A DNA stretch of 31,930 nt from a virus: positions 1-31,930 of the IMG/VR virus record IMGVR_UViG_3300004806_000056; one strand, written 5' to 3'. The number at the start of each line of letters is the position of its first letter. Position 1 is the first letter of the stretch. This document shows positions 11,007-26,865 of the stretch, one piece after another. A program made the translations under genes and the position numbers. The notes under the pieces are model-generated. The model had not been told where the DNA came from. It saw only the letters and a list, made by a program, of their open reading frames with translations, and ran no database searches.

Positions 11007-12107
11007 ATGAAAATTCCAACTAAAGTAAATCAAGCTCCAGTAATGGGTTCCGGTGCAGGTTCGGAGGTAACCGCTCTTGCAGAATGTTTACAAGCTTATG
11101 CCTGTGCGACAAGACAATATTTGGGCACAAGTTTATCAGACATTTCTCAAATAACAGATAAAACAATAGGTGATGCCAATTGTGATAGAAGTTTACCTTC
11201 TTGTTTAAAAAGTTTAGATGACGATTGGTTTCATAGTGTTATCGTTACAGCTAATCAAATATTTCATGATGTTCCAGATAGTTCTTCACAAAAATTTACA
11301 TTTCATCGTGGTGGAAAATTAGTTGGCCAAATATATTCTGAATTTGGTAAATTTAGAAAAGTTAGTGGAATTGTCGGTGATGATAAATGGAATCCCGCAG
11401 ACATTTGGATGGTAAAAAAAGGATTTATTTTTAAATCGGATTGGGATTCATTGCAAGATTACAATGGATACATTTATGATGAATTTGCAAAAACCAATTT
11501 AATCGGAATTTCACTTAAAAAAGTTCCTAAAGGTTCGCCCCATGCAGAAATTTTTAATAATGGAAAACCTCCTAATGCAATATATACTGGAATAAAATTA
11601 GGTCAAAATATGTTTGATTCAAAAGATATATACATTCAATTTAAATCTTCAGGTAAAGATGGTGAAATACAATTAAGAAATTTCTCCAGTAGACCAGTAA
11701 CTAGTTCTTGGCAAGGAGAAATCAAAGGTAAAACTGCTGCTGGTGGAAAAATTGGTGGTGGTAATGTAATGCAATCTGCTATTGATTCAGGAATAACAAG
11801 AGGAAAATTAATGTTTCCTCAAGACTTTCAATCGCAAATTGCAAAACCTTCCGATGCAACATTTAAAAAATTTGCAACGATGTTTAAAGAATTATCTGGA
11901 TCCAGAGCAAAAGTTGAGGATTTAATTATGGAGGCTAAAAAATCTCAAAGAAAAGACCAAGTCTGGTGGATGTCAAAATACATAGGAATAGATTTCTGTT
12001 ATACAATGTTAAAAGAAAAGAAACAATCTGCAATAACAAAATGGTTATTTGGTTATGGTTCTTCGGCAACAAAGAATAGTAGTATTTTTATTAAATATAG
12101 CGCATAG
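11007..12107 (+). CDS. conserved phage protein of unknown function, possible nuclease-like core
   Basis: 366 aa under its own promoter. Near residues 125-180 a segment DDKWNPADIWMVKKG is followed about 40 residues later by LIGISLKKVPKGSPHAE. An Asp at the end of a strand followed by a strand with (D/E/S)xK is the layout of PD-(D/E)xK nucleases, with Ser in place of the second acid. Other recognisable pieces are KLGQNMFDSKDIYIQF and a Gly-rich loop SSWQGEIKGKTAAGGKIGGG (about 230-250). I believe similar proteins occur in marine T4-like phages without known function. Nuclease activity is a structural guess; a structural or DNA-binding role is equally open. Confidence 0.75.
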   Translation: MKIPTKVNQAPVMGSGAGSEVTALAECLQAYACATRQYLGTSLSDISQITDKTIGDANCDRSLPSCLKSLDDDWFHSVIVTANQIFHDVPDSSSQKFTFHRGGKLVGQIYSEFGKFRKVSGIVGDDKWNPADIWMVKKGFIFKSDWDSLQDYNGYIYDEFAKTNLIGISLKKVPKGSPHAEIFNNGKPPNAIYTGIKLGQNMFDSKDIYIQFKSSGKDGEIQLRNFSSRPVTSSWQGEIKGKTAAGGKIGGGNVMQSAIDSGITRGKLMFPQDFQSQIAKPSDATFKKFATMFKELSGSRAKVEDLIMEAKKSQRKDQVWWMSKYIGIDFCYTMLKEKKQSAITKWLFGYGSSATKNSSIFIKYSA

Positions 12108-12422: not shown

Positions 12423-13154
12423 ATGAAACCATTAGTGACTGTGATTACTCCCACCACGGGAGCGCATTACCTCAGGCAAGCAATCCAATCTGTAAAATCC
12501 CAAACATACGAAAATATACAACACCTTGTGGTGGTTGATGGTGTTCATCCTAAAGCTCATGTAATTCTACAAGATTATCCTGGTTTGGATGTTATTGAAT
12601 TACCCTATGCAACAGGAACAGACCGATACAATGGCCACCGAATCTACGGTGCATCCATCTATCTTTGCAAAGGTGAATATGTATGTTTCTTGGATGAAGA
12701 TAACTGGTTAGAACCAGACCATGTTGAATCACTAATGGAAACCATCGAGGCAGGTAATCAATGGGCATTTTCACTACGCAAGATTACCGATAAAGATGGT
12801 AATTATATGTGTAATGATGATTGTGAATCCTTAGGAAAATGGCCTTCTTGCTTGGGTGAACAAGATTATTTTGTCGATGTGGGTTGTTATTTCTTACCTA
12901 AAAACATCGCATTACAATTAACACCAATTTGGTATCGTAAAGCCAGAGAACCAGGTGTACCAGAAGTAGATAGAATGTTGGTTCATGTTCTCCGTCAAAA
13001 TAACTTGACATACGACACCAATTACCTGTATACTCTTAATTATCGTACAGGAAATACCGAGAGGTCAGTACAAAAAGAATTCTTCTTACATAACAATGAA
13101 GTGATGAAACAAAAATATAATGGAACATTACCATGGCAAAAAAAGACCTCATAA
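12423..13154 (+). CDS. glycosyltransferase family 2 (GT-A)
   Basis: 243 aa. The N-terminus VTVITPTTGAHYLRQAIQSV with KSQTYENIQHLVVVDG is the typical GT2 start. The metal/nucleotide site is CFLDEDNWLEPDHV (about 82-95), where DED takes the DxD role. Conserved acceptor-side features continue with GCYFLPKNIA. It transfers a sugar from UDP- or other nucleotide sugars with inversion. It is the first gene of a compact cassette of eight genes (12423-17732) for sugar transfer and methylation; the next gene overlaps it by 22 bases. No signal peptide or TM is seen, so it acts in the cytoplasm. Confidence 0.88.
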   Translation: MKPLVTVITPTTGAHYLRQAIQSVKSQTYENIQHLVVVDGVHPKAHVILQDYPGLDVIELPYATGTDRYNGHRIYGASIYLCKGEYVCFLDEDNWLEPDHVESLMETIEAGNQWAFSLRKITDKDGNYMCNDDCESLGKWPSCLGEQDYFVDVGCYFLPKNIALQLTPIWYRKAREPGVPEVDRMLVHVLRQNNLTYDTNYLYTLNYRTGNTERSVQKEFFLHNNEVMKQKYNGTLPWQKKTS

Positions 13155-13996
13155 TTGGTGCATTTAAGAATTATAATTACAACCAGATAAAACCTTGGAT
13201 TGAATCTATCAACCAATGTGGTTTCAAAGGTGATAAAGTTCTCATTGCTCTTAATGCTACAACCGAAACAGTTAAGAAAATCGAAGATTCTGGTTTTCAA
13301 GTAATACAACCCGGTGGAACAAGTAACATGATGTTTCACATGGAACGATTTCTACATATCTACACATATCTGTTACACAATTACCAAAATTATCGTTATG
13401 TAATCACGACTGATGTTCGTGATGTGGTCTTTCAAGATAATCCAAGTCAATATTTGGAAAATGTTTTGGATATTAATGGTCCGTATATTGTGGCATCTTC
13501 TGAAGCAATCCAAATCAAAAACGAAAAATGGAATCACGACAATATTAAAACTTGTTTTGGCCAATATTTTTTAGACCAAGTTAGTGAAACACCTGTTTAT
13601 AATGTAGGTACACTTGCTGGTTATTCTGAACATATCCGTGATTTGTGTGCTATGTTATATCATATGTCATCTAATCGAGCTGATTGGGTTGCAGACCAAG
13701 CCGCATATAATATACTTTTAAATTTGTTTCCCTATAATGATGGAAAATATACCCATTGGGCTCATCTGGCGGATGGATGGACTTGTAATCTCCATGTAAC
13801 TAATAAACCAGACCAACTGGAACAATTTGGTCCACATCTATTAGAACCAAGACCTGTATTTAAAGATAATGTGGTTGTTACTGGTGCAACAGCTGACCCA
13901 TACTGTATTGTTCACCAATATGACCGTGTTCCCGAAATGAAACAATATTTTGAAAAAAAATATGGTGTTGAAGATTTAATTACCTTTAGAACATAA
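13133..13996 (+). CDS. putative glycosyltransferase (GT-A-like, DVRD motif)
   Basis: 287 aa, from the ATG that overlaps the GT2 gene by 22 bases. The N-terminal strand-helix pattern (KKDLIIGAFKNYNYNQIKPW) and YRYVITTDVRDVVFQDNP (about 85-102) resemble nucleotide-diphospho-sugar transferases in which D-x-R-D/D-V-R-D takes the DxD role. YNVGTLAGYSEHI corresponds to the acceptor-loop region 'fNaGv' of many GT-A enzymes, and WVADQAAYN matches the conserved D-Q motif near the C-terminus. Substrates cannot be inferred. It overlaps the next gene by one base. Confidence 0.8.
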   Translation: MAKKDLIIGAFKNYNYNQIKPWIESINQCGFKGDKVLIALNATTETVKKIEDSGFQVIQPGGTSNMMFHMERFLHIYTYLLHNYQNYRYVITTDVRDVVFQDNPSQYLENVLDINGPYIVASSEAIQIKNEKWNHDNIKTCFGQYFLDQVSETPVYNVGTLAGYSEHIRDLCAMLYHMSSNRADWVADQAAYNILLNLFPYNDGKYTHWAHLADGWTCNLHVTNKPDQLEQFGPHLLEPRPVFKDNVVVTGATADPYCIVHQYDRVPEMKQYFEKKYGVEDLITFRT

Positions 13997-14322
13997 TGGA
14001 TAATATAACTTTTGATTTTGAAATTGATGCATTTGGTGTTCACAATGAACTTGATGGTAAGAAAAATGTTATCTATGAAATTAGAACACTTCTTTGTTGT
14101 ACCTTAACTGAAGGTGATACATCAGGAACAAGAAAACAATTATTTGTTATTCATATTCCGGTTGATAATTTGAATAATTTTGTAGAATATGAAAATGTAA
14201 CAAAAGAACTTGCCACCAGTTGGTTGGAAAAACATCAATCAGACAACTATATCGAAGATTTAAAACGAAGAATGATAAATGATTTATATCCCAAACAACA
14301 ATATCTAAAACCTAATTTTTAA
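13996..14322 (+). CDS. 108-aa protein in the glycosyltransferase cassette, unknown
   Basis: The ATG shares its A with the preceding TAA stop. The protein is acidic with a strand-rich first half (NITFDFEIDAFGVHNELDGK, VIYEIRTLLCCTL) and a helical second half with many charged residues. No family is recognised. Tight coupling within the cassette suggests it is made with the transferases, possibly as a partner; nothing else supports a function. Confidence 0.65.
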   Translation: MDNITFDFEIDAFGVHNELDGKKNVIYEIRTLLCCTLTEGDTSGTRKQLFVIHIPVDNLNNFVEYENVTKELATSWLEKHQSDNYIEDLKRRMINDLYPKQQYLKPNF

Positions 14323-14324
14323 TT

Positions 14325-15056
14325 ATGAAACCTACAATCGGATTTTACGACCACGCCAATACTCATCCTAATGCAACAGAATTTATGATTCGTAGTATTA
14401 GAAAGTTTTATCCTGATGCACCGATTGTTATTTCTACCGACAATGTTTCTGGTTATGAATCGATGACCAAACAATATAATTGCATTTACCAGCCACATAA
14501 TTGGACTTTGGGTCCACAAACGCAACCTTTTGGTTATCGTAAAGATAAAGCAATTGAATGGTTGGATAGATTACACCAAGGTGTCAAAGAAATGAATACT
14601 GATTTCTTTACAATGATGGAAGATGATGTTGTGATATTATCAGATATTCATTTAGAACCTGAATGGGAAATGGTTGGCCATGTATTGCAATATCCAGGTC
14701 AAGTGCCTGCTTTTCCGCAAGCACTAGTAGATATGATTGTTGATTATTCTGGTGTAGTTCCCAAAAAGAATTACTATACAACAGGTGGTGGTTCTTTTTT
14801 TAAGACTTCCACCTTTTTAGAAAACTATGATAGTGTCCGTTCTTGGTTGATTACACACATTGATACGATTCAAGATAACTTTTATCCCACTCTTGGGTGG
14901 ATGGATTCTTATATGACAGTATTTTATCTGTTATGTGGTAAAGATTTAACGGAGAATCCAAGGTTCTATAATATCTGGCCAACAAAGATTCCTTTCGACC
15001 TATCTACTATTCCACCTGAATACAATCTAGTTCACAACTTTAAAAATTATTATTAA
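14325..15056 (+). CDS. putative glycosyltransferase (GT-A-like, EDD motif)
   Basis: 243 aa. It starts with PTIGFYDHANTHPNATEFM and a strand APIVISTDN, then FFTMMEDDVVI (about 94-104), where EDD is the probable metal-binding site. YYTTGGGSFFKTSTFLENY resembles the acceptor-loop motif of GT-A enzymes and GWMDSYMTVFYLL the following acidic motif. There is no membrane segment. It is two bases from its upstream and one base from its downstream neighbour. Confidence 0.75.
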   Translation: MKPTIGFYDHANTHPNATEFMIRSIRKFYPDAPIVISTDNVSGYESMTKQYNCIYQPHNWTLGPQTQPFGYRKDKAIEWLDRLHQGVKEMNTDFFTMMEDDVVILSDIHLEPEWEMVGHVLQYPGQVPAFPQALVDMIVDYSGVVPKKNYYTTGGGSFFKTSTFLENYDSVRSWLITHIDTIQDNFYPTLGWMDSYMTVFYLLCGKDLTENPRFYNIWPTKIPFDLSTIPPEYNLVHNFKNYY

Positions 15057-15057
15057 T

Positions 15058-15855
15058 ATGAATGATATCACTATTGTAACTGCCTTCTTCGACATTGGCC
15101 GTGGAGATTGGACTCCTGATAAAGGATTACCACACTATCTACACCGAACAACTGAAACTTATTTGGAAAGATTTGGCCACATGGCCAAACTCGAAAACAA
15201 GATTGTTGTATTTACCTCTAAAGAGTTAGCTGCTGATATTAAATTTCTAAGACAAGATAGACCAACAGAAATTCTTGTGGTTGATTTTCCTAATTCTTTC
15301 CAAGAACTGAGGGATTCAATCTCTAAAGTACAAAAAGATCCAGAATATTTAAAACAAATAAGTCCATCACAAATTCGTAATCCTGAATATTGGAATGCTG
15401 ATTATGTATTGGTCAATGCACTTAAATCAACCTTTGTAAATAAGGCCATACAATTAGGCCATGTACCAACAGATTTGGTTGCTTGGTTAGATTTTGGTTA
15501 TTGCCGTGAACCTTCTACAACAAACGATGTTACCAAATGGCAATATCCTTTTACCAAAGATAAAATCCATTTTTTCAATGTTCGTGATTATGATGGAAGC
15601 TTCATCTTAGATATTATCGCAAATAATATTGTACATATGCACGGATCTATGATTGTTGCGGGTAAAGAAATGTGGCCAACATTAGAAGCATTAATTCACC
15701 ATAGTGTCAATGAATTATTAAAGAACAATTTAATTGATGATGACCAAACATTGATGTTGATGTCTTATCTACAAAAACCAGAATTGTTTGAATTGCATCC
15801 AATCAAAGAATCAGACCCATTTATTATATTTAAGGAATATCAAAGTGAAAGTTGA
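15058..15855 (+). CDS. HtrL/YibB-type glycosyltransferase-like protein
   Basis: 265 aa. The N-terminus DITIVTAFFDIGRGDW is the signature of the HtrL/YibB (WlaTC) family found in LPS and capsule gene clusters. The later segment DLVAWLDFGYCREP carries the conserved D-F-G-Y stretch, and HMHGSMIVAGKEMW fits the acceptor side. The family is linked to bacterial surface-polysaccharide synthesis, though its chemistry is poorly defined. Its last 11 bases overlap the start of the next gene. It could alter host surface sugars or build a glycan for the virion. Confidence 0.85.
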   Translation: MNDITIVTAFFDIGRGDWTPDKGLPHYLHRTTETYLERFGHMAKLENKIVVFTSKELAADIKFLRQDRPTEILVVDFPNSFQELRDSISKVQKDPEYLKQISPSQIRNPEYWNADYVLVNALKSTFVNKAIQLGHVPTDLVAWLDFGYCREPSTTNDVTKWQYPFTKDKIHFFNVRDYDGSFILDIIANNIVHMHGSMIVAGKEMWPTLEALIHHSVNELLKNNLIDDDQTLMLMSYLQKPELFELHPIKESDPFIIFKEYQSES

Positions 15856-16564
15856 AATTAGACACACCATTAATATTGGAGATTTCCTAAACGCATTTCC
15901 TGTATTATCCGGTTTATCAAAATACACAAATGAAAAAATTGATTTGTTGGTTCGTGGTGAAATGAAACGATTTAATGGATTCAAGGAATTTATTAAATAT
16001 CAAGATTGTATCAATAGTGTTACATTTGATGATGAATACATTATTATGAATTATGAAGGTATTTCATTGAGTTCTATTACCAGAGAAGATAAAGAGAATA
16101 ACAATCGGCCAACAGAAACTTGCCGTTATGAGAATTGGGTTAATGACCATTATCGTATGTTATTTGAAGTGGATGATGATTTTGTATTACAAGTGGAAGA
16201 TTTAGATTTACCTGTAGATGGTGATAAACGATATGTGGGTGATAGATGGGCTGGCCCACTTATTGATGGTAGAAGAGCGTCCGGTTCACTATCACATCTT
16301 GACAATGTACACTTTTTAGATTATAATAGACCTTTGATGGAAAATGCTTACATTATCAAACATTGTAACAAACCATTCATTTCGGCATTTACGGGTACGG
16401 CAGTAATGGCCGATTTGATGAATGTGGATCAATTGGTTTTATGGACAGATGATTTAAGAATGTGGGACAATAAGCCCATCGAAGCATCATTTCAAAAACA
16501 CTTCTATGGAAATAGAAAATCTAAATTATTATATCTTGGCGATTTTGAAGAAAATGGAATATGA
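15845..16564 (+). CDS. cassette protein, possibly glycosyltransferase family 9-like
   Basis: 239 aa from the GTG at 15845, with AAGGA eight bases upstream; the same frame is open earlier but has no such site. The N-terminus MKVEIRHTINIGDFLNAFPVLSGL is reminiscent of GT9 heptosyltransferases ('iGDvllatPvl'), and the C-terminal part with FISAFTGTAVMADLM resembles their donor-site 'thGta.lA..l' segment. GT9 enzymes are usually about 340 aa, so this one would be minimal. It overlaps the methyltransferase gene by four bases. The assignment is tentative. Confidence 0.65.
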   Translation: MKVEIRHTINIGDFLNAFPVLSGLSKYTNEKIDLLVRGEMKRFNGFKEFIKYQDCINSVTFDDEYIIMNYEGISLSSITREDKENNNRPTETCRYENWVNDHYRMLFEVDDDFVLQVEDLDLPVDGDKRYVGDRWAGPLIDGRRASGSLSHLDNVHFLDYNRPLMENAYIIKHCNKPFISAFTGTAVMADLMNVDQLVLWTDDLRMWDNKPIEASFQKHFYGNRKSKLLYLGDFEENGI

Positions 16565-17097
16565 AAACAATTGAATATAAAAATAAAATTTATCCTGCAA
16601 TTCAAGGAGAAGGTAATGCAGCACAATATGCTATTCCTTTTGCAAAGAAATTTTGTCAAGGTGTAGGTTACGATATTGGATGTAATCGTTTAGAATGGGC
16701 ATTTCCTGGTGCTCAAGCAATTGATTTATTGTTTAATGATGGATGGGATGCTTATAATCTTCCTGAAAATCAAGTAGATTATATTTTCTCAAGCCATTGT
16801 TTGGAACATTTACCAAATTGGGTTGATGCTTTAGATTATTGGACTTCAAAATTAAAAATTCCATATCAAACACTCAATAAAGACGGAACAGTTGGAGTTC
16901 ATAATGGGGGAATATTATTTCTTTATTTACCACATTACAGTCAAGAATATTGGAGACCATGGAATAATCGTAAACATCTTCATTCCTTTGTTCCCGAAAC
17001 TATCATTGATTATATGACCGATAGAGGATATAAAAACATATTTTATTCTGAACGAGATTTATTGAATTCATTTATGGTTGTTGGTGAAAAAGCATGA
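16561..17097 (+). CDS. class I SAM-dependent methyltransferase
   Basis: 178 aa. Motif I is reduced to GVGYDIGCN (about 35-43), followed by AIDLLFNDGWDAYNLPENQVD and the motif IV-like IFSSHCLEHLPNWVDAL. A C-terminal strand pair (GGILFLYLPHYS, NSFMVVGEKA) completes the Rossmann-like core. The H-C-L-E-H motif is shared by sugar and small-molecule methyltransferases. Context (sugar cassette) suggests O-methylation of a glycan or of a nucleotide sugar. Substrate unknown. Confidence 0.8.
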   Translation: MKTIEYKNKIYPAIQGEGNAAQYAIPFAKKFCQGVGYDIGCNRLEWAFPGAQAIDLLFNDGWDAYNLPENQVDYIFSSHCLEHLPNWVDALDYWTSKLKIPYQTLNKDGTVGVHNGGILFLYLPHYSQEYWRPWNNRKHLHSFVPETIIDYMTDRGYKNIFYSERDLLNSFMVVGEKA

Positions 17098-17732
17098 TTG
17101 AAGGTTATTCACAGTTAACCGCAGGCCATTGGTTTCAGAGAAATCTTACAGGTCCATCACCTGATTATAGTGCTTCATATTCTCAAAACAGCTACGACAC
17201 CTATGGTACCAATGATGCCATGTCGGAATTAAGATACAATCTTATTCAAAATACAATTGGTGATTTTGATAGTATTTGTGACTATGGTTATGGTAATGGT
17301 GCTTTTATGAAGCATTGTGTCAGTAATGGTAAAGATGTTTATGGTTATGACATATCAGACTATCCTGTACCGTTGGGATCTAAAAGGACAGTCGTTCCAG
17401 ACAGTTTAGAAGTTGATGTAATGACATTCTATGATTGTATTGAACACATACCCCAACGCAATCTGGTCAAGTTTCTAAAGTCCAAACGAGCCAACCATTT
17501 TGTCATTTCGGTACCTTGGTTTCATGAATCTCTCGGTCCAGAGTGGTTTAGAAAATGGAAACATCGTAGAGAAAATGAACATATTCATCATTTCGATTCA
17601 GCTGGACTAATCAATCTACTAATCCAATCTGGATACAAAATAATCTATGTTGGTAACGCAGAGGATAAGGTTCGGAAACCAGTAGATAATTATCCGAACA
17701 TTTTAACGGTTATTGCATCAAAAATCCAATAA
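17094..17732 (+). CDS. class I SAM-dependent methyltransferase-like protein
   Basis: 212 aa, overlapping the previous methyltransferase by four bases. SAM motif ICDYGYGNGAFMKHC (about 62-76) and YGYDISDYPVPLG (second strand), then TFYDCIEHIPQRNLVKFLKS, the post-motif 'D.iEHi' region. HFVISVPWFHESLGPEW resembles the 'isvPn' strand of sugar N/O-methyltransferases and is followed by a His-rich HIHHFDSAGL, as in the 'h...f....l..ll...G' motif. It is the last gene of the cassette. Confidence 0.82.
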   Translation: MIEGYSQLTAGHWFQRNLTGPSPDYSASYSQNSYDTYGTNDAMSELRYNLIQNTIGDFDSICDYGYGNGAFMKHCVSNGKDVYGYDISDYPVPLGSKRTVVPDSLEVDVMTFYDCIEHIPQRNLVKFLKSKRANHFVISVPWFHESLGPEWFRKWKHRRENEHIHHFDSAGLINLLIQSGYKIIYVGNAEDKVRKPVDNYPNILTVIASKIQ

Positions 17733-17793: not shown

Positions 17794-17801
17794 TATAAAT
17801 A
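17794..17801 (+). promoter_or_regulatory. T4-type late promoter (TATAAATA)
   Basis: An exact octamer 44 bases before the ATG at 17845, in the 112-base gap that separates the sugar cassette from the virion-associated block. The gap holds nothing else that I can see. Confidence 0.8.
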
Positions 17802-17844
17802 AGCAACTGGCAACCAAAGTGTGTTGCAAATCAAAAGGAAAATC

Positions 17845-19035
17845 ATGTTATCATTTAAGTCATTCCTAACGGAAGAAGCCGAAAAAGGTTCTGAACTTAA
17901 GCATATTCATCATGCAGAAGATAGACCATTAATGCATGGCCATGCAGGATTTGAACACGCACACGCTGCTTTAACTAAAGTTCATGCACATATTACTGGC
18001 GGCCACAACAACACTAATCTAACAACAAAGTATGATGGTTCACCTTCACTAGTTTTTGGCCATCATCCTAAGAATGGTAAATTCTTTGTTGCAACAAAAT
18101 CTGCCTTCAATAAAAATCCAAAGATTAATCATACAGAAAAAGACATTGATAGAAATCATGGTCATGCTCCTGGTTTAGCCGTTGCACTCAAACACGCATT
18201 AAAGCATCTACCTAAAGTGGCACCAAAACATGGTGTTTATCAAGGCGACTTATTACATCATGCTGGTAGTGAAAAATTATCTGAAGGTTACATTGTAGAG
18301 GCAAAAGGTGATGTTTCCTTTACTCCAAATACAATCACTTATACTGCTCATGGTGATGAGGCCAAAAAGGTTAAGCACTCCAAGGTTGGTGTTGCCGTTC
18401 ATACGCAATATAGTGATGATATGAAACATACCACACCTCATGTGGATATGAGTAAATTTAAAGAACATCCGGATGTACACATTCACGGTGCAGAACACGA
18501 TACAAGTAAAGTAAAACATTCCGCTGAGAATGAAAAGACATTTCAGAAGCATATGACTGCTGCCAAAGAAATTCATGACACACATGGCCACAAGATGTAT
18601 GACGCTGTTCATCCAAAACATAGTGGAGAAACTGGTCATTTATCAACATATGTAAATCATACTGTTCGCCACGACCAAGTACCAAGTGTTAAAGGTTTCA
18701 AAGAACACCTACACTCACAACATGAAAAAATGGCTTCAAAGGTTTCTACCGAAAAATCCAAGTCTGAAAAAACTGGTGAAGGTAAGAAACAGATTGCTCA
18801 TGTTGAAAAGAATAAAGAACATTATGGTAACTTATTTTCAATGCACCATCATTTACACCAAGCAAAAAATGCATTGGTTAAATCTTTAGAAACTCATGAA
18901 GGTAGATATGAACACCACATTGCTGGTAAGAAATCTAAACCTGAAGGTTTTGTGGTACACCATGATAATGAACCAACTAAACTTGTCAATCGTGCTGAGT
19001 TTGCTAAACAGAATCTATTAAAAGTCCGTAAATGA
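17845..19035 (+). CDS. His-rich KxDG nucleotidyltransferase-like protein with internal-protein leader
   Basis: 396 aa from ATG with AAAAGGAA upstream. K62-Y-D-G65 followed by SPSLVFG and FVATKSAF matches motif I of covalent nucleotidyltransferases (RNA/DNA ligases, KxDG). Later GVYQGDLLHHAG, EGYIVEAKGD and KPEGFVVHH, followed by TKLVN, could be motifs III, IIIa/IV and V. The predicted reaction is nucleotide transfer or ligation through a lysyl-AMP. The first ten residues MLSFKSFLTE match the capsid-targeting leader of T4 internal proteins, with cleavage expected after E10. About 13% of residues are His (hand count near 53), which is extreme. It overlaps the next gene by four bases and follows a late promoter, so delivery with the virion is plausible. 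The ligase call rests on motifs only. Confidence 0.75.
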   Translation: MLSFKSFLTEEAEKGSELKHIHHAEDRPLMHGHAGFEHAHAALTKVHAHITGGHNNTNLTTKYDGSPSLVFGHHPKNGKFFVATKSAFNKNPKINHTEKDIDRNHGHAPGLAVALKHALKHLPKVAPKHGVYQGDLLHHAGSEKLSEGYIVEAKGDVSFTPNTITYTAHGDEAKKVKHSKVGVAVHTQYSDDMKHTTPHVDMSKFKEHPDVHIHGAEHDTSKVKHSAENEKTFQKHMTAAKEIHDTHGHKMYDAVHPKHSGETGHLSTYVNHTVRHDQVPSVKGFKEHLHSQHEKMASKVSTEKSKSEKTGEGKKQIAHVEKNKEHYGNLFSMHHHLHQAKNALVKSLETHEGRYEHHIAGKKSKPEGFVVHHDNEPTKLVNRAEFAKQNLLKVRK

Positions 19036-20906
19036 AATCATTTTCAGAGTTACTAAGAGAGGAAGCAAAAGCTGAAAAGCATCATGCAATGACTTTTGGT
19101 CGCATGAATCCTCCTACATCCGGTCACTTGAAACTTGTAGATAAAGTTAAAGATGTTGCCGCTAAACATAATGCTTCTCATTCTGTCGTGGTATCACATT
19201 CACAAGATGCCAAGAAGAATCCATTAAGTGGTGAACAAAAAGTAAAACACTTAAAAAGGTATTCACCAGAAACTTCTTTCAAATCTTCCTCCAAAGAACA
19301 TCCATCGGTCTTGCACCATGCTGCTGAATTGCATAAAAAAGGTGTAACTCACCTTCATATGGTTGTCGGTTCTGACCGAGTTAAAGAAATGCATCATATA
19401 TTACACAAATATAATGGTGTAGAATCTTCTCATGGTAAGTATCACTTCAAAAAGATTACTGTACATTCCGCAGGCCATCGTGATCCTGATGCTGAAGGTA
19501 CCGAAGGTATGTCTGGTTCTAAAATGAGGCACCATGCTTCAACGGGTAACTATAAAGAATTTAAGAAAGGTGTTCCTGGCCATGTTCCTGAACACCATGC
19601 AAAAGAACTCTACCATGATGTCCGTAAAGGTATGGGTGTACATGAATCTGTTGACCGTGGTTTGTTCAAAGCAATTTTTGTAACGGGTGGACCTGGTTCG
19701 GGTAAAGATATTGTAATCCGTGAAGCCATTGCTGAATCAAAGGCAGTAGAATTAAATTCCGTGCAGGCCTTTGAGTACCTTGCAGACAAACAGAAACTAT
19801 CAGAAAAGACTAGTGATTTCCGTAGAGAATCTATAAGGAATCGTGGACCACTCATCATCAATGGTCCGGCCGATGACTTTAATCGTATCTCCCATATCAA
19901 AGAAGAACTGGAAGACCTCGGTTATTATACTATGATGGTATTTGTTAATACCACAAACGAAGCCAGTCAAGAAAGAAATACCAAATTATCTAGAATGATG
20001 GTCGAATCCGTCAGATATGATAAGTGGGTACAGGCACAAAAGAGTAAGGAACACTTCTCCGAATCATTTAACAATTTTGTCTATATTGATAATACAGGTA
20101 CGGTTGACGCCATCGAACAAGATATAACTGAAACTTACCTAAATATCAACAGGTTTATAGACAATAAAACTTATAACGAGGTTGCAACCGTTTGGTTAGA
20201 AACCCACAATAAGTTAAATATAAACGATAAAATAGTTTCATTGTTCAAGGAAGAAATAAATGTTGAAAAAGTTAATAAGTTTCTTAAAGTCAAAACCAAC
20301 CCAGCCCTCAAAGCAGACGGTCTCGACAGTATCCCGGCCGACAATCGTGCCGGTGACCCCAACGCAGACAATATCAAGTGGGACGCCCCCAAAAGAAACA
20401 AAACCTACACCTTCCGCACCTACAGCGAAGAAAGCAATCCCAAGTTCCAAATCAAGCCAGTCCCCAAAGAAAGCAACTTCTCCAAGGACAAAGAAAAAGG
20501 CAAAGTAAAAAGGTCATTGAGTGCTTCTCGTATCGGTAATCCACCAGGTGTTGGACCAGAATTCGATACAAGAACCTCAGGACAAGGTTTAACAGGTGGT
20601 GCAGGACTAGGTAATCAGACATATAGTGAGGACCAAGAATATAGTAATGCAAGTCCTAGTAGTACAGCGTTTCCATCTGGTGGGTCACCAAATCCACTAA
20701 GTAATGATTATACAGACAAACCAAAAGATTTTAAGAAGTTTAGAAAACAATTTAAAGAAGCCATTGACGATCCAGGTGCTTGTGACATGGGGGTTGGTGG
20801 TGTATTAGGTGGGGCTAGTAATAAAGAAGGCATGGACACCTATAAGGACCAAAACAGAAACATCGGTATCGAAATAAAAAAGAAAAAGAAAAAGGGAGCA
20901 CAATAA
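19032..20906 (+). CDS. fused nucleotidyltransferase and P-loop kinase with internal-protein leader
   Basis: 624 aa. The leader MKSFSELLRE resembles T4 internal-protein capsid targeting. Residues 19-180 form an adenylyl/cytidylyltransferase fold: TFGRMNPPTSGHLKLVDKV with T-S-G-H (29-32) as the HxGH-type motif, and EGMSGSKMR (158-166) as the 'ISxTxxR' signature. Residues about 210-390 form a P-loop kinase: FVTGGPGSGKDIVI with Walker A 219-226 and IINGPADDFNRIS, in the style of zeta-toxin or polynucleotide-kinase folds. The C-terminal third is low-complexity and probably disordered, and a second ORF (20260-20508) is overprinted there. It overlaps the ligase-like gene by four bases. Together they could make an end-healing and sealing pair, or a nucleotide/NAD enzyme; the substrate is not readable. 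Confidence 0.8.
   Translation: MKSFSELLREEAKAEKHHAMTFGRMNPPTSGHLKLVDKVKDVAAKHNASHSVVVSHSQDAKKNPLSGEQKVKHLKRYSPETSFKSSSKEHPSVLHHAAELHKKGVTHLHMVVGSDRVKEMHHILHKYNGVESSHGKYHFKKITVHSAGHRDPDAEGTEGMSGSKMRHHASTGNYKEFKKGVPGHVPEHHAKELYHDVRKGMGVHESVDRGLFKAIFVTGGPGSGKDIVIREAIAESKAVELNSVQAFEYLADKQKLSEKTSDFRRESIRNRGPLIINGPADDFNRISHIKEELEDLGYYTMMVFVNTTNEASQERNTKLSRMMVESVRYDKWVQAQKSKEHFSESFNNFVYIDNTGTVDAIEQDITETYLNINRFIDNKTYNEVATVWLETHNKLNINDKIVSLFKEEINVEKVNKFLKVKTNPALKADGLDSIPADNRAGDPNADNIKWDAPKRNKTYTFRTYSEESNPKFQIKPVPKESNFSKDKEKGKVKRSLSASRIGNPPGVGPEFDTRTSGQGLTGGAGLGNQTYSEDQEYSNASPSSTAFPSGGSPNPLSNDYTDKPKDFKKFRKQFKEAIDDPGACDMGVGGVLGGASNKEGMDTYKDQNRNIGIEIKKKKKKGAQ
20260..20508 (+). CDS. overprinted basic Ser/Thr/Pro/Lys-rich protein (+1 frame)
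   Basis: 82 aa in the +1 frame of the kinase gene. AAGGAAG lies at ideal distance from the ATG at 20260. The product starts with an amphipathic MLKKLISFLKSKP, then Thr/Pro/Ser-rich linker sequence, and ends KKATSPRTKKKAK. From about 20295 to 20505 the host frame abruptly uses C in third positions (GCC, ACC, GAC, CCC, AAC), unlike the A/T-ending codons before and after. Those C's are second positions in this frame and code its Ser, Thr, Pro and Ala. The composition switch ends with this ORF's stop, strong evidence that it is a real gene. It has no signal peptide or TM; function unknown. Confidence 0.65.
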   Translation: MLKKLISFLKSKPTQPSKQTVSTVSRPTIVPVTPTQTISSGTPPKETKPTPSAPTAKKAIPSSKSSQSPKKATSPRTKKKAK

Positions 20907-22250
20907 ATGTTTGCAAAATCCAAAATCAGCCAGTCAATAATTGATGCAGTTAGTTTAATCATTAGTGAAAAATCTGAAAAAGTCCAACAATTGGACGAAG
21001 CCGGTAATATCAAAATTCCAACACCAACAGGAACCAAAGTCCTTGGTGGTAGTTATGGTAATTCTGCAGCTGCTCACCGTGACCAAACCAAATCATCTGT
21101 TGATTCTTTAAAAGAACCTACTAAAAAAGATATTGAAAAAGATTCTCGTCTTTATGTAAAGGATACTGGTCAAAAAAGAAACTATAAAGTTCACGCTGGA
21201 AGATTTTTCTCTAATATGGATTCTGAACTTCCTACTAAAGGAAAAGAAGAACCTCGTTATAAGAATGAAGAAGTTGAGGCACATGAAAAGAAAATGCACG
21301 GTGAATCATTTGCTGCTCGTTTGATTGAAGGCCTTAAAACAAAACAAAATGAAGCCGCTGAAACCTCTGATGTTACTACTGATACATTAGCTGGTCGTTC
21401 AGAAGGTGGCAAAGATAACGATTTCAAAAAATTCAAAGTCAAACTAAAAGGTGATGGTGTTACACGACCTGCAGCTGCTACTCCAGAATTGACACCTGCA
21501 AGAGCCTCTATTCATGCTGAAGAATTTGAATTGAATGAAGGTGATAATCTTGGCGACATTGCTAAGAAACACGGCATGGAATTCAATAGAACCACTTATG
21601 GCGCTGGAATGAAACACCCAAAACATGGTGAGATTTCTATCAACCGTTATGGTGAATGGCATCACAAAGGAACTAAAGCTCAAGGTGATAGCACAGATAA
21701 ATTTTCTAGTTTAGATAAACACCTTGCTACATTAAAAGAAGAAGTTGAAGGATTGGATGAAGCTGTTTCACGCAAAGACTTTAAGTTGGTTGCGGATTTA
21801 ATCAAAACTCATGATAATGCTGATAAGCGTAAAGAGTTAGCAAACCACCATGCAAGTATTTTTGCACAACAAAATCCTCGTTTTGACCATGCCAAGTTTC
21901 TAAAGGCTGCTGGTGTTAATGAATCTTTTGAAGATGAGCATGGTATTCCTAGTTCACCTAAAAAGAACCAAGACATTGCTGATAAATCACACTTAAAAGA
22001 TTTAGGTAAGAAACCATCTTTGAAAGGTGATATTAAAAACTTTGGTCGTTTCTTAGCAGGTAAAAAAGAAACTAACGAAGCCAAAACACTTTCACCTGGC
22101 CAAGACGATGCACCTTTTGATCCTCCTTATGCAGATGTTCCAAAGAATGTTAAAGACAAATCTGGTGCAGTTCATACACCAATGTCCCGTGCAAAAGATT
22201 TAGCTCGCAATGCTATGAATAAAGTTAAAAAAGATATGTCTGTCAAATAA
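20907..22250 (+). CDS. virion-associated modular protein, probable head-internal
   Basis: 447 aa, directly after the kinase stop. The N-terminus FAKSKISQSIIDAVSLIISE is an amphipathic helix ending in a hydrophobic-x-Glu prohead-protease-like site. The rest is Lys/Glu-rich and modular. A segment of LysM-like start EGDNLGDIAKKHGMEF (about 212-227) runs into GEISINRYGEWHHKG. VSRKDFKLVADLIKTHDNAD followed by RKELANHHASIFAQQNPRF (about 287-325) is a helical module seen in many phage proteins. Other L/I-x-E sites (RLIEGL, FELNEGD, GLDEAV) could be cut by a gp21-type protease. I infer a scaffold/core or internal head protein; the exact role is unknown. Confidence 0.7.
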   Translation: MFAKSKISQSIIDAVSLIISEKSEKVQQLDEAGNIKIPTPTGTKVLGGSYGNSAAAHRDQTKSSVDSLKEPTKKDIEKDSRLYVKDTGQKRNYKVHAGRFFSNMDSELPTKGKEEPRYKNEEVEAHEKKMHGESFAARLIEGLKTKQNEAAETSDVTTDTLAGRSEGGKDNDFKKFKVKLKGDGVTRPAAATPELTPARASIHAEEFELNEGDNLGDIAKKHGMEFNRTTYGAGMKHPKHGEISINRYGEWHHKGTKAQGDSTDKFSSLDKHLATLKEEVEGLDEAVSRKDFKLVADLIKTHDNADKRKELANHHASIFAQQNPRFDHAKFLKAAGVNESFEDEHGIPSSPKKNQDIADKSHLKDLGKKPSLKGDIKNFGRFLAGKKETNEAKTLSPGQDDAPFDPPYADVPKNVKDKSGAVHTPMSRAKDLARNAMNKVKKDMSVK

Positions 22251-22259
22251 GGCAAGAAG

Positions 22260-23819
22260 ATGAACAACATAGTAAAAAAAATTAAATCAATCATTAAGGG
22301 TACTGCACCAGCGTCTACGTATGGTACAAACCCTAATGATCCTTGGTCTGCCAAAGCAGGTATTGCTGAAAGTAGTAATGAATCTATGTTGGATTCCTAT
22401 CTCAATTCAAGAGGTATCAATCCCCGTTTTATTAGTACCGATACAAGAATTTCTCATGCTAAATCTTCTGAATTTATGAAATGGAAGAATGACCATCAAT
22501 TTGAATCTGTACAAGAAGAAACAGATAAAAAAGATACTGTAACAATGGACATTCCTTTACTGATTCGTGTATTAGAATTGGCTCGGGAAGATATTAAATC
22601 GGATATGGACTTACACAAGGTTGTTGAGAAATTAATCAATATCCGTGATAAAGGTATGTTGACCATGGATGATTATGAATATATTGCCAAATTAAAAGAA
22701 GAATATGAATTGCAAGAAGGTCAATTCAAACGGGGAGTAATTGACCGTGAAGAAGATGCTCGTTTGAATAAGATGACTACACTTAAAAAGTTCCGTGCTG
22801 ATGCTGATGCGAGAACGAAGAAACATGATGCCATTGAAAAGAATTCTGGTGGCATGACTTCTGCTATTGACCGATTACAAGCACATATGAATAAAGAAGA
22901 AACTGAATTGGAAAAGAAAGCTGCAAAATACGATTGGTCTAAACGCATGCCAAAACAGAAAAAACCAATTCAACATTATGGTCAAATAGAGTTAAAAAAG
23001 AAACAATTGGCTAAATTGAATAATGAAGATGTTACCAGAACGGCAACAGGACTCATTAATAAGGGAAAATACGGCACATCATACACAGGTGACACCGTTG
23101 AAACTTCCAAACAAAAAGATTCTAAAGATTTAAATTACTTGAATAAAAAACTCACTAAAGACCTTGAAAAGGGAATGGATGTGCATTTTGATAAAGTTAA
23201 AGAAGAAACTGAACAGATTGATGAAATCTCCAGAAAAGCATTAGATACTTATAAAGCAGGTTCATTAGCCAGTTTGAAGAACGCACAAAGTAACAGAGAT
23301 GCAGCTTCACATGGTAAAGATTTTTCTCCTGCTTTTGCTAAATTGCACAAAAAATCGAATGAGATTGCCAAGAAACGCACTCAAGGACTTATTGGTTATA
23401 TGCAGAGAAAAGGTGGCATGAAACCATTTAGTGAAGATATCTTCCAAGATGGCCAAGCACCAACGCAGACTTCATTTGACGGGGCTAATGCACCAGATAA
23501 TACAGAACCAAAAACAAATAGTAGACGGACAGAAATGTCCAAATCAGCTCGTATAATTAAATCTTTATATAAGCATCACAATATGAAGGAAGAGTTATAT
23601 GATTCTGAAAAGGAAGATAAATCTGTAGCATCTTATGGTAAAAAACCGAAGATGAAAACAACGAAACCGGAAGACAGTTTTGGTGATAACCCACCAACAG
23701 CTGCAGCAGTTCTAACTGGTGGTAAGACACTAACTGGCTCAACTAGGGATACTTTGGAAATTGATCCCGAAATGAAAAGACCCACTCGGCCAGATGGTAA
23801 AAAACAAGAAAAGAATTAA
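22260..23819 (+). CDS. virion-associated modular protein, probable head-internal
   Basis: 519 aa, nine bases after the preceding gene and similar in style: Lys/Glu-rich, mostly helical, few Cys or Trp. The N-terminal part (IVKKIKSIIKGTAPASTYGT and DPWSAKAGIAES) precedes a helical acidic domain (about 95-165). The module QIDEISRKALDTYKAGSLAS followed by LKNAQSNRDAAS (about 321-355) is a short helical unit that recurs in phage structural and DNA-associated proteins. Several L/I-x-E sites (YELQEG, QIDEIS) resemble prohead protease sites. The C-terminal 130 residues are low-complexity. An internal head protein or scaffold is inferred. Confidence 0.7.
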   Translation: MNNIVKKIKSIIKGTAPASTYGTNPNDPWSAKAGIAESSNESMLDSYLNSRGINPRFISTDTRISHAKSSEFMKWKNDHQFESVQEETDKKDTVTMDIPLLIRVLELAREDIKSDMDLHKVVEKLINIRDKGMLTMDDYEYIAKLKEEYELQEGQFKRGVIDREEDARLNKMTTLKKFRADADARTKKHDAIEKNSGGMTSAIDRLQAHMNKEETELEKKAAKYDWSKRMPKQKKPIQHYGQIELKKKQLAKLNNEDVTRTATGLINKGKYGTSYTGDTVETSKQKDSKDLNYLNKKLTKDLEKGMDVHFDKVKEETEQIDEISRKALDTYKAGSLASLKNAQSNRDAASHGKDFSPAFAKLHKKSNEIAKKRTQGLIGYMQRKGGMKPFSEDIFQDGQAPTQTSFDGANAPDNTEPKTNSRRTEMSKSARIIKSLYKHHNMKEELYDSEKEDKSVASYGKKPKMKTTKPEDSFGDNPPTAAAVLTGGKTLTGSTRDTLEIDPEMKRPTRPDGKKQEKN

Positions 23820-23826
23820 GATAAAT
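23819..23826 (+). promoter_or_regulatory. possible late promoter variant (GATAAATA)
   Basis: One mismatch to TATAAATA at the boundary of two structural genes, 32 bases before the ATG at 23858, a spacing like the exact copies at 1297 and 1840. The mismatch makes this uncertain. Confidence 0.35.
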
Positions 23827-23857
23827 AACAAGTAACAGACATTCAAAGGAGAAAAAG

Positions 23858-24499
23858 ATGTCATCATGGGGAAATAACGATAATGCAGCCAACGCACCAT
23901 ATTGGGCTGTAAATTCAACAATAGCACCAAACAATCCTACACACGCTGAACCAACAGATGTCAATGTAGCATTGCTTTATGGAAACACCACACCAGATGT
24001 ATATACTACAGATGAAACAATTGGACTATTTGGTATTGATGCCAATGAAGCTCAAGTTGAACATGGTACTGTACATACAGGTTGGGTAATTCGCACAACT
24101 GGATCTGGTGGTCGTGCAGGTCGTGTACAAGAAGAAGTTTTGGTTGCTTTAAGTTCAATAATTGGTGATGGTGATACAGTATATGCAAATACTACTGTTA
24201 CTATTACTGCACAACCAGCAAGTAATTCATCGATTCATGGTGCTGGAAATACTGTAACATTTACTGTTGCAGCTACTTCTGATCCAAGTTTCCCTGTAAC
24301 TTATGTTTGGCAGTTTAATAGTGGATCTGTATGGGCTAATGCTTCTACCGATACAGTAAACTTCCTCTCAGGTTACACAGGAACAACCTTAACAGCTAAC
24401 GCTGTGGCAACTACTGCTAATACTTGGCAAGTTCGTGCTGTCGCTACTGCACTTGACCAAACAGTTACAACTGCTAACGCCGTAATCACGATTCTTTAA
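23858..24499 (+). CDS. virion decoration-type protein with C-terminal Ig-like domain
   Basis: 213 aa with AAAGGAGA before the ATG. Residues 1-108 match a conserved phage virion module: WGNNDNAANAPYWAV, TIGLFGIDANEAQ, HTGWVIRTTGSGGRAGRVQ and EEVLVALSS. Residues about 109-213 form an Ig-like beta sandwich (VTITAQPASNSSIHGAGNTV, VTYVWQFNSG, TWQVRAVATALDQTVTTANA). Ig-like domains on phage capsids and tails (for example T4 Hoc) bind weakly to surfaces or mucus. It is Asn/Thr-rich with no Cys. Exposed capsid or tail location is inferred. Confidence 0.8.
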   Translation: MSSWGNNDNAANAPYWAVNSTIAPNNPTHAEPTDVNVALLYGNTTPDVYTTDETIGLFGIDANEAQVEHGTVHTGWVIRTTGSGGRAGRVQEEVLVALSSIIGDGDTVYANTTVTITAQPASNSSIHGAGNTVTFTVAATSDPSFPVTYVWQFNSGSVWANASTDTVNFLSGYTGTTLTANAVATTANTWQVRAVATALDQTVTTANAVITIL

Positions 24500-24502
24500 T
24501 AG

Positions 24503-24985
24503 ATGTTAAATTTTCGTGAATATGTCACCGAAGGTGGAGATGACGGCATTGCTGTCATTTCCATTTCCAAAGAACATATTGATTGTTCGTTAAGTGAAAC
24601 TCTTGATGAAATTAATGATGATTTGGAAGATGGACTTGAAGGTCAAAATTATTTAAGTCCATATGGCGGCTGGGTAAGAGCTTCTAAAGTATTGTCATTA
24701 TACGGCATAATTCTCCCAAATGTCATATTCAAAGATATAAACGATGGTGAAGAAGTTGTTGCAATTCAGCAGTTAGGTCATAAAGTTGGTGCCAACCTAG
24801 ATGGCACCATAAATATGCAACCAGATGTTTCAGAATACTATTTCTTTTACAGTTATGGTCGTGGCGAGGATGGTTATTACGACACATTCGCCGCCGTTGT
24901 AAATGAGGGTGATTTAGATTACTATGTTTCAGATGATACAGAACATTTAAATCCAGAAGGCGAAGAACAACCACCACAAGAATAG
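24503..24985 (+). CDS. acidic protein with internal-protein-like leader, unknown
   Basis: 160 aa, three bases after the preceding stop. The first ten residues MLNFREYVTE fit the internal-protein leader (aromatic at 4, Y-V-x-E), so cleavage after E10 would leave an N-terminal Gly-Gly. The mature part is acidic and beta-rich (VISISKEHIDCSLSETLDE, YFFYSYGRGEDGYYDTFAA) and ends with a Glu/Pro tail. No family is recognised. Expected packaging in the head rests on the leader only; the acidic, DNA-mimic-like charge is compatible with T4 internal proteins that inhibit host nucleases, but this is speculation. Confidence 0.65.
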   Translation: MLNFREYVTEGGDDGIAVISISKEHIDCSLSETLDEINDDLEDGLEGQNYLSPYGGWVRASKVLSLYGIILPNVIFKDINDGEEVVAIQQLGHKVGANLDGTINMQPDVSEYYFFYSYGRGEDGYYDTFAAVVNEGDLDYYVSDDTEHLNPEGEEQPPQE

Positions 24986-24991
24986 TATAAT

Positions 24992-25378
24992 ATGTTTGAT
25001 GATTTGAATGATGAGAATTTTTTAATTTATGCGATGAAGCAGTATAATTCACCGCATTGTATTGTATCCGAATTTGCGAGCGACATTAAACGTACCAAGT
25101 ATCTCCAACGATTGTTTCGTAGATATAAGGTTACAAAATCCCTCAAAGAAAGATTAATACTAAACCACATTATTTTATTGAATAATGTTTTTGGCTACGA
25201 TGCAACGGCCAGAATACTATTCTATAAGATAGACGAAAGAGATTATGATATATTGAAAACTTTTTTGTCCTATTTGAATATTATGCCAGATACAGTTTAC
25301 GGAATTAATGGTAAAAATGTATCAGTCGCTGAAATTCCATTAGACGCTAATGTTGTTGAAATATTAAGAAAAATATAG
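24992..25378 (+). CDS. conserved T4-like phage protein, unknown
   Basis: 128 aa, helical. Basic in the centre (KRTKYLQRLFRRYKVTKSLK), with ERLILNHIILLNNVFGYDAT then ARILFYKI as a hydrophobic core. I recall similar proteins next to structural genes in marine T4-like phages, without known function. It ends 17 bases before the tail-fibre-like gene. Confidence 0.7.
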   Translation: MFDDLNDENFLIYAMKQYNSPHCIVSEFASDIKRTKYLQRLFRRYKVTKSLKERLILNHIILLNNVFGYDATARILFYKIDERDYDILKTFLSYLNIMPDTVYGINGKNVSVAEIPLDANVVEILRKI

Positions 25379-25395
25379 GAATAGGGAGATTTATC

Positions 25396-26535
25396 TTGGG
25401 AAGTTCAATTTATAGAATTTACGCCGAACATTTAGGCAATAGTAACGTGGCATCGTTTATTGGAAGAACAGGAGAAATCTTTTATGATCCATTGAATGGA
25501 GCATTAAGTATTTCTGATGGAGAAACTGTTGGTGGCAATCCGATTTCCATACATACAGGTAATTTGGTTTATGACCATGATATTATTCCAATTGCGGATA
25601 ATACCTACTCTCTAGGTTCTGAACTATTACGATGGAAATCGGTTCACATTGGTCCAGGAACTTTATTCATTCAGGATCGAAACGATGCAGGACTAAATGC
25701 AGAATTAACCGTTATTGATGGTGTGTTACAAATTAACGGCGCAGACCAACTTCAAATTGGACAGTTAAAGTTTGTTAATAATAATATTGAATCATCTTCA
25801 GGTGCTACTGATATTGAGATTGGTTCAACAAGTTCATCTGCCAATCTTGTATTTAATCGTAATACATCAATGGCTACAGGTAAAACCATTAGTTGGGGTA
25901 CATTAACTGGTGACTACGAAACTGAAAAATTCTTTAGTATTGGATTAGATGCTAGTGGTGGTATAGAATCGGCAGGACCAAGTTCTTATCTCAAAACTGA
26001 GGGTCAACTTGATTTTAACATTGATGTGAATGGTAATCAATGGTTCTTTAAAAACGATGGCACTTTTATACTTCCTGGTGGAATCAAACCAGCAGATGGA
26101 ACCACAGATATAGTATTAGGAACCGATGATGGTTCTGATACGGGAAACATCAGCGCATATAGAACATATCAACTTCGTGATGGTAATGATAATGTTCTAA
26201 TGCAAATTCAAAATGAAGATGGGGTTGGTAAATTAAAATTTGATGGTGGTAGTAATGGTATTTGGTATGATGGTGGTGTAGTAATTAAAGGAGTTGGATA
26301 TCAGGCTGATAATACTTCTATTCAACCAATGTCATTTAATAGTGCTACTGGAGCAGTAACTTATGGGCAACTAAATTATAATCATTTCGTTGGATTCCCA
26401 AGATTACCAAACTATGCCAATGATGCCGCCGCCAATACTGCCGCCGGAACTCCATTAAAAGGTATGCAATATTATAATACAACAACCGATAAAGCAATGG
26501 TCTACACCGCTTCCGGTTGGCAGGCAATGAATTAA
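25396..26535 (+). CDS. tail-fibre-like structural protein
   Basis: 379 aa from a TTG start with GGGAGA upstream; no ATG is nearby in frame. The N-terminal section (YRIYAEHLGNSNVASFIGRT, GEIFYDPLNGALSISDGE) and NTYSLGSELLRWKSVHIGPG with LFIQD are typical of repeated beta-strand fibre proteins of marine T4-like phages. The middle is rich in Gly/Asn/Thr with short strands (beta-helix-like). The C-terminal KGMQYYNTTTDKAMVYTASGW resembles the ends of fibre-associated proteins. Probably a short tail fibre or accessory virion protein; host-range contribution is inferred. Confidence 0.75.
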   Translation: MGSSIYRIYAEHLGNSNVASFIGRTGEIFYDPLNGALSISDGETVGGNPISIHTGNLVYDHDIIPIADNTYSLGSELLRWKSVHIGPGTLFIQDRNDAGLNAELTVIDGVLQINGADQLQIGQLKFVNNNIESSSGATDIEIGSTSSSANLVFNRNTSMATGKTISWGTLTGDYETEKFFSIGLDASGGIESAGPSSYLKTEGQLDFNIDVNGNQWFFKNDGTFILPGGIKPADGTTDIVLGTDDGSDTGNISAYRTYQLRDGNDNVLMQIQNEDGVGKLKFDGGSNGIWYDGGVVIKGVGYQADNTSIQPMSFNSATGAVTYGQLNYNHFVGFPRLPNYANDAAANTAAGTPLKGMQYYNTTTDKAMVYTASGWQAMN

Positions 26536-26553
26536 TCCAGATTAAGGCACAAC

Positions 26554-26865
26554 ATGAAAACATTTAAACAATTCGTAAATGAACACATCATCAAAACGGG
26601 TGATGAATATAAATTGGTGTCTAAGAAATCAGGTAAGAACCTTGGCACAGCAAACAGTCTTTCTGGTATTAAGAAACGTGAAAGAGAAGTTGAATACTTC
26701 AAACACATGAAAGAAGATGGTGAAGGTGGTGGAAATTCTGTAGCAGGTATTGCCGGCACAGGTGATACAAGATTGGCTACTGACCAGCGTGAACCTGGTG
26801 TTTCAAAAAAGAAGAAATCACCAATTATATCACCAATGGGTAAAAGAAACCCACCGCAGATATAA
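26554..26865 (+). CDS. small protein with internal-protein-like leader, unknown
   Basis: 103 aa. The leader MKTFKQFVNE is the closest in the window to the T4 internal-protein start MKTYQEFIAE; cleavage would follow E10. The rest is Lys-rich and Gly-rich (KKSGKNLGTANSLSGIKKRE, GEGGGNSVAGIAGTGD) and ends PMGKRNPPQI. The mature part looks largely disordered and basic, like a DNA-bound internal protein. It is just upstream of the lysis cassette (one base gap). Confidence 0.7.
   Translation: MKTFKQFVNEHIIKTGDEYKLVSKKSGKNLGTANSLSGIKKREREVEYFKHMKEDGEGGGNSVAGIAGTGDTRLATDQREPGVSKKKKSPIISPMGKRNPPQI

Follow-up and report, generated by a model that had tools for sequence, protein, structure and literature searches.

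A T4-type capsid-targeting leader on enzyme-like proteins of a gp41-gp61 cassette points to probable head cargo in T4-like phages

The internal proteins of bacteriophage T4, their leader and the protein Alt have long been known. IP1-3 of T4 inhibit GmrSD restriction enzymes (PMC12373910), and Alt is an injected ADP-ribosyltransferase that is packaged in the head and processed by gp21 (PMC9026906). Suppressor mutagenesis in T4 assigned targeting to positions 4 and 7 of the leader and processing to positions 8 and 10 (PMC9026906), and a review by Black suggested that T4-like phages may generally use the leader for packaging. For cyanophages, a virion-carried cytidylyltransferase/NMNAT, a kinase and an S-adenosylmethionine (SAM) hydrolase have already been proposed (PMC9602691, PMC10665884). 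We analyzed the IMG/VR virus record IMGVR_UViG_3300004806_000056 (hereafter the window), a complete viral record of 31,930 bases that represents a fragment of a T4-like phage, in which four genes of a cassette between gp41 and gp61 encode proteins with a leader of this type. A first-pass annotation had regarded enzymes among the internal proteins as a step beyond T4, which was wrong in view of Alt and the cyanophage proposals. In the open-licence literature, the term "capsid targeting sequence" occurred together with cyanophage only in the Black review, and no paper was found that ties packaged cyanophage enzymes to a T4-type leader; the accessible text of the virion papers on S-SM1, S-SCSM1 and S-CREM2 mentions neither the leader nor a sorting mechanism. 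The new element here is the link of the leader to packaged enzymes and its test on published data, the packaged enzymes themselves being known.

We consider it likely that the gp41-gp61 cassette encodes head cargo, which is sorted by the T4-type leader and then delivered with the DNA. The four leaders are MLSFKSFLTE (17845..17874, with a predicted cut after E10), MKSFSELLRE (19032..19061), MLNFREYVTE (start of 24503) and MKTFKQFVNE (start of 26554); these leaders, the cassette genes and promoters located below and the gene at 11007..12107 lie on the plus strand of the window. The first-pass annotation had read the same N-termini, with which translation agreed exactly, and had described a common pattern in four otherwise dissimilar proteins; the pattern proved to be far above the internal-Met and shuffle backgrounds, and the bodies of the four proteins are unrelated to each other. 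We defined the strict pattern as M..[FY]..[FYLIVM][ILVFMAT].E, in which the letter classes for positions 7 and 8 were fixed only after the four proteins had been seen. All four leaders carry the T4 determinants at positions 4, 7, 8 and 10. In the window, the pattern was found at 4 of 36 N-termini versus 0 of 207 internal Met (binomial P = 5e-8 with the pooled internal-Met rate), and shuffling of the N-termini (residues 2-15, 1000 trials) gave a mean of 0.03 matches and a maximum of 1. The same search over 14 other T4-like genomes returned 34 of 2672 N-termini; among internal Met in all 15 sequences, 11 of 11459 matched (~0.1%). As a control, the pattern returned exactly IPII, IPIII and gp61.1 from T4. 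Leu at position 4 was dropped because it pulled in UvsX (MNFLQDVAKE) and MKSLYEVFDEFE proteins, which are not expected in virions. The Cas9-like ORF12 of S-CREM2, with ..RFASFMAE about 17 residues inside the annotated start, was left out of the counts.

The leader is conserved among orthologs. In 42 distinct N-termini of DUF6267 proteins of the window clade, the family to which the 17845 product belongs, residues 1, 4 and 10 are invariant, residue 7 is F or Y and residue 8 is L or I; these fixed positions coincide with the T4 capsid-targeting positions, and residues 11-30 differ widely. The 50 distinct orthologs of the 19032 protein all have M1 and F4, and 40 of them have E10; position 7, which is Leu in the window protein, is often Lys. 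The codons of the fixed residues differ synonymously among orthologs, and the constraint therefore acts on the protein. The leader is N-terminal throughout, with the nucleotidyltransferase domain starting at about residue 17 in the window protein, 30 in S-CREM2 and 105 in S-SCSM1, and the gap between leader and catalytic domain thus ranges from a few residues to about 95. In structure models, the leader is predicted as a short helix that is not part of the folded domains; confidence was low for the DUF6267 protein. Alternatively, domain shuffling might have spread the leader from one ancestral protein, leaving it without function today in some members, as the mere leader remnants in orthologs of phage HTVC008M (MYNDLLVED and MKTLKELLRK) would suggest. 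The key positions are nevertheless invariant in the 42 DUF6267 sequences whereas their neighbours vary freely, and we regard such an origin as extremely improbable.

Published mass spectrometry of homologs gives location in the virion, not specifically in the head. In S-CREM2, 52 virion proteins were identified by this method (PMC10665884). The strict pattern picks 4 of the 202 called proteins of this phage, namely a SAM lyase (PF23780), a kinase, a cytidylyltransferase and ORF136, a protein of unknown function, and all four are in the virion list (P = 0.004). ORF13 and ORF15, which lie beside the kinase gene, are near misses to the pattern and were both detected in virions. A second cluster for leader-bearing virion proteins in S-CREM2 (OR473000, 3837-13331) contains the SAM lyase, a Cas9-like nuclease, the kinase and two small proteins and lies far from gp41-gp61. 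For the S-CREM2 cassette alone (ORF154-160), virion enrichment was below significance (4/7, P = 0.06), and in the equivalent cassette of S-SCSM1, 7 of 9 products are flagged as virion proteins in the record (P = 8e-5). Leader-bearing homologs of the 19032 protein are present in virions of S-SM1, S-SCSM1 and S-CREM2: S-SM1 virions contain T4-GC190 (PMC3037559), for which the S-SM1 record gives a gene with a product starting MKKFSAFLNE, and S-SCSM1 ORF91 is an NMNAT-like virion protein with the N-terminus MKSFLQFLKE. The S-CRM01 kinase, reported in virions (PMC10665884), begins MISFDQFLSE. Homologs of the SAM lyase have the N-terminus MKTFKEFLEE in marine virus AG-345-L05 and, from an inner Met, MKTYKEFIQD in P-TIM68. 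The DUF6267 homologs of S-CREM2 (gp87) and S-SCSM1 (ORF257) have no leader, and their genes lie elsewhere than in the cassette; neither protein was detected or is flagged as a virion protein.

These data bear on whether the likeness is due to chance or to a constraint at the 5' end of genes, such as translation initiation, with the virion detections being contamination by abundant late proteins. The tag has only ten residues, and contamination was raised by the S-CREM2 authors themselves. We nevertheless judge this explanation very unlikely, given the probability calculated for the window, the fixed F4 and E10 despite synonymous codon changes, the presence of every strict S-CREM2 match in virions while leaderless DUF6267 homologs went undetected, and the absence of core replication proteins (polymerase, RecA-type recombinase and primase) from the S-CREM2 virion list.

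The leader genes cluster at one locus, and the cassette shows synteny with relatives. We compared 12 T4-like genomes, excluding S-CREM2 because its helicase-primase interval is rearranged (~100 kb), and found the strict pattern in 23 of 257 genes inside the gp41-gp61 interval versus 4 of 2127 outside, two of these four being T4 IPII and IPIII. The sequence TATAAATA, which we take to be a T4-type late promoter, has an exact match at 17794..17801, 44 nt before the first leader gene. It was found upstream of 17845 orthologs at 40 of 47 distinct loci, at a distance of 42-56 nt (mostly 42-47), with 0.94 expected. The number of such sites in the window is not enriched (3 found, 4 expected), and the evidence for a late promoter is the conserved position. 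At a second late-type site, NATAAATA was present in 28 of 28 upstream regions of 23858 orthologs; the window has the late-promoter-like GATAAATA upstream of 23858 (23820..23827). Late expression fits head assembly. A gp21 protease, on which the cleavage proposed in the first-pass annotation would depend, is encoded by relatives and is absent from the window fragment. Of 18 records from relatives and T4, 15 contain the gp21 family PF03420, among them all those of 121 kb or more; the other three are contigs of 87-115 kb and possibly incomplete. In capsid proteins of the relatives, the expected site reads hydrophobic-x-Glu (LLTE, ILTE, FLSE and QLNE), which makes the gp21 cleavage rule plausible.

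By analogy with T4, the cassette would be transcribed late from the promoter at 17794, and leader residues 4 and 7 would dock the four products to the prohead core. The gp21 protease would then cut at the hydrophobic-x-Glu formed by residues 8-10, that is, after E10, and the cargo (the DUF6267 enzyme, the cytidylyltransferase-kinase, the acidic protein and the gp61.1-type arm mimic) would be enclosed before DNA packaging and most likely carried into the next cell along with the DNA, like the T4 internal proteins and Alt. The products of 17845, 24503 and 26554 are presumably present in virions. Leader conservation, the late promoters, the gp21 genes of relatives and the mass-spectrometry detection of homologs in virions largely support packaging through the T4-type leader, and this part of the earlier interpretation stood while the novelty of enzyme cargo relative to T4 did not. 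Because a T4-like address tag occurs on enzymes in related virions, it is probable that this phage brings finished enzymes into the cell together with its DNA. The nucleotidyltransferase-kinase and the possible ligase-like DUF6267 protein might target nucleotides of the host or the ends of nucleic acids at the onset of infection.

Several observations count against this interpretation. E10 is lacking in 10 of the 50 distinct 19032 orthologs, and the leaders of HTVC008M are degenerate. S-SCSM1 ORF30, one of two strict matches in that phage, is not flagged as a virion protein, and the leaderless cassette proteins ORF90 and ORF97 of S-SCSM1 do reach virions, so that the leader is not the sole route. 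According to the S-CREM2 authors, CsCl preparations may carry contaminants (PMC10665884), and the sets of mass-spectrometry data are small. The 32-kb fragment that makes up the window does not include gp21, and virion evidence for it comes from relatives only.

The first gene of the cassette (17845..19035) encodes a protein of 396 residues. The program that called open reading frames chose GTG at 17821; we took ATG at 17845 as the conserved start because M1 is invariant in 34 aligned orthologs. The product matches DUF6267 (PF19782; 9e-96, 321.9 bits versus a curated cut-off of 27) and contains K62-Y-D-G, E367-G-x-V and K379-x-V, with K62, D64, G65, E367, G368 and V370 invariant among the orthologs. 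The best Foldseek match of its model was a DNA ligase, with an E of 0.05 that is below significance. From its motifs, a ligase-like nucleotidyltransferase is plausible but unproven. The second gene (19032..20906) encodes 624 residues, with a cytidylyltransferase-like region (~17-205), a P-loop kinase (~210-400) and a disordered tail (400-624) with a Lys-rich end. Profiles PF01467 (marginally over the cut-off) and phrog_3041 (3e-65) matched, and the folds matched ATP sulfurylase, adenylate kinases and polynucleotide kinases with E of about 1e-5; by these matches and folds, the protein combines an HxGH cytidylyltransferase-like domain with a P-loop kinase. Sequence searches of the PDB with two alignments gave no useful match.

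Two genes without the strict leader (20907..22250 and 22260..23819), whose translations are Lys/Glu-rich, follow, and the product of the next (23858..24499) has weak similarity (E 7e-4) to ORF95 of S-SCSM1, which is flagged as a virion protein. The small protein encoded at 24503..24985 is strongly acidic, with 32 D+E and 6 K+R after the leader. A search of named phages with this protein gave no match; in phage Melnitz, a leader gene before DUF7207 is its positional counterpart, although the two proteins are not alignable. A role of the acidic protein as a DNA mimic is speculation. A leaderless DUF7207 protein, recognized by profile match, is encoded at 24992..25378.

The last leader gene (26554..26865) encodes a mobile middle domain, a capsid-arm-like motif and a KKKK stretch, and by position, leader and motif its product is the apparent window counterpart of T4 gp61.1. 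Like gp61.1, which begins MKTFKEFIKE and has a Lys-rich tail, it is encoded before the primase gene; it differs in its inserted mobile domain, in the few genes that separate it from the primase gene and in a weaker capsid-arm motif, and the window contains no capsid gene with which to compare this motif. The region 26580-26715, HIIKTGDEYKLVSKKSGKNLGT..KREREVEYFKH, is a small mobile domain that is fused to many unrelated phage proteins. Close to the primase gene, T4 and several other phages encode a small protein that is similar to the N-terminal arm of the major capsid protein of the same phage in the region of the gp21 site. Of all proteins of the phage, this one matched the capsid arm best in T4 (gp61.1, z 8.9), S-CREM2 (ORF160, 9.3), S-SCSM1 (ORF97, 9.0), Syn9 (gp190, 9.1), S-SM1 (5.4) and G008 (5.2), and the likeness is weak or absent in several other phages. 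In T4, FLTEAEIGGDHGYNATNIAAGQTSGAVTQIGP of gp61.1 corresponds to FIKEDMVAGDSGGNPENISIGTTSGAVVNKGP of the mature N-terminal capsid arm. Some records label the T4 gp61.1 homolog "major capsid protein". S-CREM2 ORF160 and S-SCSM1 ORF97 are present in virions. A copied capsid arm suggests a role in assembly, and the leader could be a docking tag by which scaffold or assembly factors bind the prohead core; the proteins would work inside the prohead during assembly and then be degraded or leave, without reaching the next cell. In T4, the core proteins are cut by gp21 and for the most part do not stay in the head, and the low-complexity Lys/Glu-rich proteins of the cassette would suit such a role as well. 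Homologs of the nucleotidyltransferase, the kinase and the SAM lyase, however, stay in purified virions, and catalytic folds fit a host-directed job better than a scaffold; we therefore hold docking alone to be unlikely and favour packaging followed by delivery.

The window has the gene order gp43, UvsX, gp41, primase and ribonucleotide reductase, named from the sequences themselves and from synteny with HTVC008M and Melnitz. These two phages, both filed under Kyanoviridae, are the closest cultured complete relatives as judged by the 19032 protein; a nucleotide search of named phages gave no match. Upstream of the cassette, 11007..12107 encodes a leaderless homolog (phrog_1462; E 3e-24) of S-SCSM1 ORF90, which is flagged as a virion protein, and a late-promoter-like AATAAATA lies 28 nt upstream of this gene. 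Between it and the cassette is a run of glycosyltransferase-like and methyltransferase-like genes (12423-17732, named by eye) that HTVC008M and Melnitz lack at the equivalent place. Positions 40-1654 contain five tRNA genes, an S21-like gene and a GroES-like gene (protein names by eye).

Metabolic enzymes have turned up repeatedly in the virion proteomes of cyanophages, which left undecided both whether they are cargo or contamination and how they enter. The T4-type leader offers a mechanism and a test for virion enzyme cargo for which the sequence is sufficient. From it, injected effectors can be predicted in abundant aquatic phages, including an anti-restriction SAM lyase, kinases, NAD/CTP-type nucleotidyltransferases and DUF6267 proteins, as well as the residues whose mutation should matter. 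We lean, with some reserve, towards the broader view that the T4 leader is a general address code in enterobacterial, cyanobacterial and other aquatic T4-like phages, by which injected enzymes (nucleotidyltransferases, kinases, SAM lyases and DUF6267 proteins) could be listed from the sequence alone, the tag deciding for each member of a protein family whether it is packaged.

The window proteins resemble T4 IPI, IPII and IPIII in the ten-residue leader, with an aromatic residue at position 4, a hydrophobic residue at 8 and Glu at 10, and in their unrelated bodies. The T4 internal proteins are small inhibitors, whereas the cargo of the window includes large enzyme-like proteins and an acidic protein, and its cassette lies at gp41-gp61, unlike the T4 ip loci. 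The window proteins are not internal proteins in the narrow sense of small and basic: 26554 is both, 17845 and 19032 are large, and 24503 is acidic. Alt is not small either, and size therefore does not exclude packaging. Alt, an enzyme in the head that is processed by gp21 and injected, is like the proposed cargo, and differs in having its own propeptide of seven residues. The closest likeness of the 19032 protein is to S-SM1 T4-GC190, S-SCSM1 ORF91 and S-CREM2 ORF154, which share the homologous nucleotidyltransferase domain and the leader, and the nucleotidyltransferase locus is common to the window, S-SM1 and S-SCSM1. Compared with the cyanophage virion enzymes, which include S-CREM2 ORF154, ORF14 and ORF6, the nucleotidyltransferase protein of the window has an extra kinase domain.

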